48,672 bases of DNA from Candidatus Nanopelagicales bacterium (GTDB lineage: Bacteria; Actinomycetota; Actinomycetes; S36-B12), in NCBI GenBank assembly GCA_018609125.1, contig JABAYF010000023.1, forward strand, positions 64,745-113,416. Reading direction: 5' to 3'. This document shows, piece after piece, positions 11,410-11,958 of the stretch. The notes beneath the pieces were generated by a model. That model was not told the origin of the DNA. It made no database searches and saw only the letters and a list, made by a program, of their open reading frames with translations. Every line of letters starts with the position of its first letter. Within the stretch, counting starts at the first letter, position 1. Made by a program: the position numbers and the translations under genes.

Positions 11410-11958
11410 ATGACCGAAGGCCCTGACAAGTCCGCTGACGCACCCCAGCCACCGCCGACACCTCCGGCTGGACAGCCCACACCTCCAGCTCCGCAGCCCA
11501 CACCGCCTGCCGCGCAGCCAATGCCGGCACCCCCGGCTCCGCAGCAGGGCTACCCGCAACAGGGCTACCCGCAACAGGGCTACCCGCAACAGGGCTACCC
11601 GCAACAGGGCTACCCGCAACAGGGTTACCCGCAACAGGGTTACCCGCAGCAGGGCTACCCGCAGCAGGCGTATCCCGCCTACTACCAAACGCCGAGTCGC
11701 CCCACGTCGTCAAATGCGATCGTGGCATTTGTCCTGTCGATCGTCTCGTGGGTGATCTGTCCGGTGATTCCGGCCATCGTGGCCCTCGTCTTGGTGAACA
11801 AGTCAGAGCAAGAAATTGCCGCATCGGGTAATCAAGTGACCGGCTCAGGGTTTAATACGGCATCCAAAATCATCTCGTGGGTCAACATCGGGCTCTATGC
11901 CGCGATCATTGTGGGCGTGGGCATCTTCGTTCTCCTTGCCGCGCTTTTGTCCAACTAA
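11410..11958 (+). CDS. Proline/glutamine-rich repeat protein with C-terminal membrane domain (DUF4190-like)
   Basis: Its function is unknown. The 182-residue protein has a long Pro/Gln-rich N-terminal region (about residues 10-95). That region contains eight perfect QQGYP repeats and one QQAYP. Two hydrophobic segments follow, about 102-125 ([22 protein letters not shown]) and 155-180 ([20 protein letters not shown]), with a short polar stretch between. Small actinobacterial membrane proteins of the DUF4190 type share this plan, with the disordered tail probably cytoplasmic. It stands alone between the rpoC terminator and the str operon, which suggests an independently expressed gene. Confidence 0.8.
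11542..11676 (+). repeat. In-frame 15-base tandem repeat encoding QQGYP (nine units)
   Basis: Eight units encode QQGYP (11542-11661) and a ninth, degenerate unit encodes QQAYP (11662-11676). Units differ only at third positions (CAA/CAG, GGC/GGT), so the array is nearly identical at DNA level. That points to recent expansion by slippage or unequal exchange. Copy number is likely to vary between strains and is prone to assembly error. Confidence 0.95.

Follow-up and report, generated by a model that had tools for sequence, protein, structure and literature searches.

The window, that is the whole stretch of 48,672 nucleotides analysed here, originates from a Candidatus Nanopelagicales bacterium and carries, between the end of rpoC at 11269 and the GTG start of rpsL at 12229, a gene encoding a DUF4190 membrane protein of 182 amino acids (11410–11958, plus strand, ATG start). 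The protein has a proline-rich N-terminal tail. The upstream part of this tail is encoded by degenerate 21-base repeats (11449–11519, plus strand), found as two overlapping period-21 rows by Tandem Repeats Finder, and is followed by an array of eight QQGYP units and one QQAYP unit (residues 45–89; 11542–11676, plus strand). The DUF4190 domain covers residues 103–165 (11716–11904, plus strand) and the two hydrophobic segments are located at 11710–11826 and 11845–11952 on the same strand; by hydropathy, the hydrophobic 19-residue windows span residues 98–133 and 152–182. A preliminary description of this DNA had placed a Gln-Gln-Gly-Tyr-Pro array in a proline-rich tail ahead of two membrane segments, and inspection of the open reading frame confirmed that arrangement. 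The DUF4190 name, the place between rpoC and rpsL and the lack of conservation of the repeat go beyond that description.

The match to DUF4190 (PF13828) scores 35.5 bits against a cut-off of 35, covering profile positions 2–61 of 62, and 38.6 bits in a search of the whole genome. A search of the protein against NCBIfam gave only matches far under the cut-off. Among 30 orthologs from the same order, 29 match DUF4190 at E ≤ 10, with 7.1e-12 as the best value. These alignments comprise 30 of 45 domain-matching genomes, with two loci (L008 and L021) truncated at contig ends and one (L014) containing one ambiguous residue. Ten proteins from the wider class were also scanned with Pfam; eight match DUF4190 at E < 0.001, two of them over the cut-off, one (L175) matches only at 0.0066 and one (L170) gave no DUF4190 match. 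The proposed domain plan held up, as both hydrophobic segments align in all 30 orthologs, L021 being cut by the contig end within the second. Residues L109, P118, G145, W157 and N159 are invariant in this set and C117 is nearly so. Identity as a small protein of the DUF4190 kind, a family that is known but little studied, is thus well supported by sequence comparison. The protein resembles other members in having two hydrophobic segments in a small polypeptide, but it is barely above the cut-off, has a long Pro/Gln/Gly/Tyr repeat tail and adjoins rpoC. Two further DUF4190 genes are located on other contigs of the same genome; one has a short proline-rich start and neither contains QQGYP. In one genome of the class (L171, G142), the gene adjoining rpsL encodes DUF4190 fused with a DUF1707 SHOCT-like domain. 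The name DUF4190 occurs in no paper of the open-licence literature searched, and a phage search gave no match at E ≤ 1e-5.

The order of the parts, with a long N-terminal tail, a first segment with Cys-Pro, a loop with Lys and Arg and a second segment, is the same as in CD225/dispanin (IFITM) proteins. The protein itself has no CD225 (PF04505) match at E ≤ 10 and so does not reach the curated cut-off, whereas 20 of the 30 orthologs do match at E ≤ 10 (best 2e-5). In an hhalign comparison with a profile built on the CD225 domains of relatives, 21 in number and at loci taken from a longer list of CD225 matches, the domain profile gave a probability of 86 over 62 columns and E = 5.2e-6, a single-pair value that does not come from a database search and is suggestive only. 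Six CD225 matches fall at the domain places of this gene; only the one at a contig end in G014 is over the cut-off, and this only when its neighbours are in the frame. Dispanins carry a Gly-Asp motif in the loop, according to the available part of PMC3282796. This motif is absent from all 30 ortholog loops, and the double Cys of the first helix is likewise absent, there being one nearly invariant Cys followed by the invariant Pro. The lack of a CD225 match, together with the absence of Gly-Asp and of the double Cys, means that the protein is likened to dispanins and not placed among them, and the comparison suggests a domain that is distantly CD225-like in plan. A separate gene of the same genome is over the CD225 cut-off, at 73.4 bits. 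In another genome (L131, G037), a CD225 protein scoring 95.6 bits has a GYPQxGYPQ tail, that is, a similar repeat on a different membrane domain. Two mycobacterial CD225 proteins conferred moderate resistance to influenza virus in human cells, as far as the available part of PMC4488726 states, an analogy suggesting that domains of this type are able to act on membranes. Open-licence searches for CD225 with Actinobacteria returned nothing.

The domain profile matches 45 of the 59 genomes in the order sample, the present one included. In 36 of these 45 (again including the present one) rpsL follows the domain on the same strand within 1.5 kb, and in four genomes of one genus the domain lies 13–15 kb upstream on the same strand. 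In G026, which belongs to the latter group, the match begins about 300 bases after rpoC, and in G034 about 3.2 kb after it. The rest consist of one genome without an rpsL match and four with the domain and rpsL on different contigs. One further candidate (L036) was rejected as an ortholog, as its 8.3 kb hold no rpoC or rpsL match. The end of rpoC is also found upstream in many of the order's loci. In a sample of the class, 53 of 197 genomes match the domain profile, 12 from the same order and 41 from outside it. Among the matches listed, 11 of the 12 have the domain less than 500 bases from rpsL. Outside the order, among the rpsL matches listed, the domain is within 1 kb of rpsL in at least 18 of the 41 genomes (8 families), within 2 kb in at least 21 (nine families) and within 10 kb in at least 25; ten carry the match elsewhere and six are unplaceable, rpsL matches being absent from some genomes. 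Class-level stretches were taken from 20 of the 21 genomes with the domain at most 2 kb from rpsL (G239 was left out); in seven the end of rpoC is found upstream, and the others are too short or have no match. An open-licence search for "rpoC and rpsL" gave papers that were unrelated by title and abstract, and one for Streptomyces locus tags expected close to rpsL gave a single paper, the passage concerned being a list of promoters.

No domain match was found in 14 of the 59 order genomes (11 of the 50 with at least 90% completeness) or in 144 of the 197 class genomes, and the gene would therefore be dispensable in many lineages, a missing match in a draft genome being possibly missing sequence. 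Twelve order genomes (L115–L126) have rpsL with no domain match beside it. Eight of these twelve stretches reach rpoC; the shortest interval between rpoC and rpsL among them measures 343 bases (G035) and the longest 1.8 kb, and some of these intervals hold other open reading frames. Several losses or relocations of the gene may have occurred. In G052 the domain profile has a weak match on another contig, and in G050 only the tail is matched.

Signals that could govern expression were found in the interval after rpoC. A stem-loop resembling an intrinsic terminator lies between rpoC and the DUF4190 gene (11293–11333, plus strand), with 19 pairs followed by a T-run, a folding energy of −35 kcal/mol and a z of −5.95; none of 200 shuffles was as good, and the crude terminator scan is expected to give 0.8 such sites by chance. 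The closest relative, G003, has a long stem of different sequence after rpoC (z −11.2), and a third member of the genus, G002, has none (z −1.85). The hexamer TAGATT (11398–11403, plus strand), which resembles a −10 box, begins 12 bases 5' of the ATG. Of 29 orthologs, 20 have a TANNNT that starts precisely at −12 relative to the start codon, whereas shuffled sequences gave a mean of 0.95 and a maximum of 5 such cases for positions −13 to −10 (2000 shuffles). This count omits L008, and in L034 the start was placed three codons too far in, with TANNNT at −12 from an upstream GTG. By eye, five of the nine orthologs without TANNNT (L019, L023, L028, L030 and L031) have GGAGG before the start; of the other four, three have C for the first T and one has a mis-picked start. 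A scan for two-hexamer (−35/−10) promoters found no site. A −10 box at this spacing would place the transcript start at or beside the start codon. The pattern suggests a leaderless transcript of the DUF4190 gene, and given the GGAGG in five orthologs the mode of start seems to differ between families.

An AlphaFold model made with the 30 orthologs has no helix or strand before residue 101 and helices at residues 101–116, 119–139 and 146–181. In the model the first hydrophobic segment consists of two helices separated by a break at residues 117–118, beside the invariant Pro118, and the second of a single long helix from residue 146 to 181 that includes the invariant W157 and N159. The model is weak, with a mean pLDDT of 66 and a pTM of 0.30. 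The pLDDT is about 50 over the array, and this prediction, together with the lack of helix or strand in the tail, agrees with the earlier proposal that the tail is disordered. A structure search of the PDB with the model gave nothing below E = 3, and the single match from a profile search of PDB sequences, at E = 1.2, is not meaningful.

In all 30 orthologs the loop between the hydrophobic segments exceeds the final 20 tail residues in Lys plus Arg. The mean number is 3.3 for the loop and 0.57 for the entire tail, with 0 at the C-terminus, so the loop probably faces the cytoplasm. Within the order the tail is nearly free of Lys and Arg, with none at all in 18 of the 30 orthologs, and the positive-inside rule therefore fits an exported tail equally well. 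A tail on the outside would imply two membrane crossings, with both ends outside and the tail lodged within the cell wall, where it would serve as a surface domain or interact with the wall. The charge bias of the loop over the tail is consistent with such a topology, yet hydropathy reveals no candidate signal peptide ahead of residue 98. For a tail of about 100 residues, export in the absence of a signal peptide would be unusual. Furthermore, by eye, all eight genes of family f22 at this place (L172–L179) have an Arg-rich cluster N-terminal to the first segment, which suggests a cytoplasmic tail at least in that family and thus also speaks against export. Precedents from the dispanins point both ways: their N- and C-termini are stated to face outward (PMC3282796, in its available part), whereas EPR and NMR of IFITM3 in micelles gave one membrane-crossing helix and an intramembrane segment, according to the available part of PMC4820770. 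We consider the exported tail possible but rather unlikely. The same f22 proteins have a long Tyr/Asp/Gly-rich tail with an FPGF...YPGYD stretch, again by eye.

With the tail inside, the first segment, broken at the invariant Pro, may enter the inner leaflet and fold back, a behaviour reported for IFITM3, and with such a re-entrant segment tail and loop would share one side of the membrane. We lean slightly towards this inside topology, favoured by the modelled break beside Pro118, the Arg-rich clusters of f22 and the IFITM3 precedent.

Tandem Repeats Finder reports the array at 11539–11668 with period 15, 8.7 copies, 96% match and a score of 225, the highest among 15 rows in the window. The preliminary description had counted nine near-identical 15-base units; the repeat and its period are real, and the units encode eight identical QQGYP peptides and one QQAYP. 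The eight exact units occur in three DNA versions, CAG-CAG-GGC-TAC-CCG (twice), CAA-CAG-GGC-TAC-CCG (four times) and CAA-CAG-GGT-TAC-CCG (twice). Their mean DNA identity is 0.943 against 0.833 ± 0.022 in simulations using the codon usage of twelve open reading frames of the window (P = 2e-5, 100,000 runs), and P is 2.2e-4 when the codon usage of rpoB, rpoC, fusA and tuf is applied. Four identical units, as found in G003, gave P = 4e-5 with window usage and 1.7e-4 with that of rpoB, rpoC, fusA and tuf. These values bear on the possibility that codon bias or an assembly effect, and not recent expansion, has made the units near-identical. The host does prefer CAG and TAC and, more weakly, GGC and CCG, and the assembly is a draft of 31 contigs; the simulated identities nevertheless fall short of those observed, and the inner units have in common CAA, which is the less-used codon. 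This explanation is therefore very improbable.

A comparison within the genus drew on four genomes, the gene being readable in three; G001, which has no rpsL match, was left out. There are nine units here, four in the closest relative G003 and zero in G002, one genome standing for each species, so that the comparison is between species. In place of QQGYP the tail of G002 has a PGQPY/PGQPQ array, another five-residue repeat. A DNA pattern for GYPQQGYP was found in two of 59 genomes, namely this one (7 overlapping matches) and G003 (3). Units 1 and 8 are identical to the G003 unit and the six inner units carry CAA, a pattern expected after internal expansion. The units would multiply by slippage or unequal recombination. 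Both the unit identity in excess of codon usage and the varying copy number in congeners support the recent expansion and length variation that had been proposed, and turnover of the copy number of the 15-base unit is well supported as a reading of these sequences. The domain, compared with that of G003, has a dN of 0.057 against a dS of 0.62, indicating that purifying selection is acting on it.

Unrelated bacteria (Ruminococcus, Burkholderia, Sorangium, Streptomyces and others) also have QQGYP-like arrays, with the match often confined to the repeat, and the repeat alone is therefore no proof of kinship. Likewise, the protein matches its own genome a second time, but this match turned out to be the same array in another frame and was dismissed as a repeat artefact. 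Pfam includes an XYPPX repeat family, and the tail is similar to XYPPX and other Tyr/Pro/Gly/Gln repeat tails in its low-complexity repeats; the protein gave no XYPPX match at E ≤ 10. Open-licence searches on QQGYP, XYPPX and Tyr-rich low-complexity proteins returned unrelated papers only. Since it is not conserved, the repeat cannot serve to define the protein. Conservation is seen in the membrane domain and its place, and the low-complexity tail exists in several transient versions, of which this repeat is one.

This variability extends to the tails of the orthologs, which measure 17 to 157 residues up to the domain, with one of 12 that is cut by a contig end. Tandem periodicity above that of shuffles of the same tail (P < 0.01, the smallest possible P being 0.002) was found in 18 of the 37 tails with at least 40 residues, out of 49 in total; L163 was excluded for frame breaks, and several class-level tails are cut at the 5' end. 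The other 19 show no such periodicity, so repeats are not required. Where present, the units differ: QQGYP here, GYPSP in L010, PGQPY/PGQPQ in L007 and PPGYG-like in L168. The 49 pooled tails, which include other families and come from related, not independent, species, contain 19.8% Pro, 13.1% Gly and 5.7% Tyr, compared with 4.8%, 9.3% and 1.8% in twelve open reading frames of the window. Cys is absent from the 30 aligned tails. Trp occurs in 21 of them, in 15 followed by Pro; it is lacking in the three members of this genus and six others, one of which is cut by a contig end.

Most likely, as far as can be judged from sequence, this is a clustering, membrane-organising protein whose disordered tail would need composition only. 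The protein would oligomerise via its membrane domain and the Tyr/Gly/Gln/Pro tail would form weak multivalent contacts, clustering the protein or recruiting partners, with selection acting on the composition of the tail and not on its sequence. Composition is likewise the basis of the self-association that the preliminary description had suggested for repeats of this kind. Alternatively, the tail could be a neutral, slippage-prone spacer, under a loose limit on charge and hydrophobicity and with no role in self-association, while the domain does the work. The poor conservation of the tail in sequence and length, the many tails without significant repeats and the clear purifying selection on the domain all fit such a spacer; the enrichment of Tyr and Pro over background, the lack of Cys in 30 tails and the recurrence of tandem repeats with differing units do not, and we regard it as a minority possibility. 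For the reading of a clustering protein taken as a whole, that is, a small integral DUF4190 protein with a variable tail, a conserved place, a leaderless start, repeat turnover and clustering or partner recruitment, we are evenly divided between acceptance and doubt. The specifics of the mechanism, namely clustering or partner recruitment at the membrane, are distinctly more doubtful. A bolder speculation would see here an old, unstudied rpoBC-str resident of the class with its own leaderless promoter, whose tail re-invents repeats under selection for composition and forms a condensate scaffold tethered to the membrane, its expression perhaps coordinated with that of the adjoining transcription and translation genes; this we consider improbable.

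If the tail is selected for composition only, the orthologs would provide a natural series of tails on one conserved domain at one conserved place, and thereby a clean way of testing if low-complexity tails make bacterial membrane proteins cluster. The steady place by rpoC and the str genes also makes this gene a definite candidate for functional work on DUF4190.

Repeat extensions are found in two ribosomal proteins encoded elsewhere in the window. Ribosomal protein S3 (20221–21105) has a long C-terminal extension rich in Ala, Pro, Glu and Val with 15-base repeats (20982–21053), and ribosomal protein L17 (32323–32961) has an acidic Ala/Glu/Val repeat extension at its C-terminus (repeat at 32842–32905).
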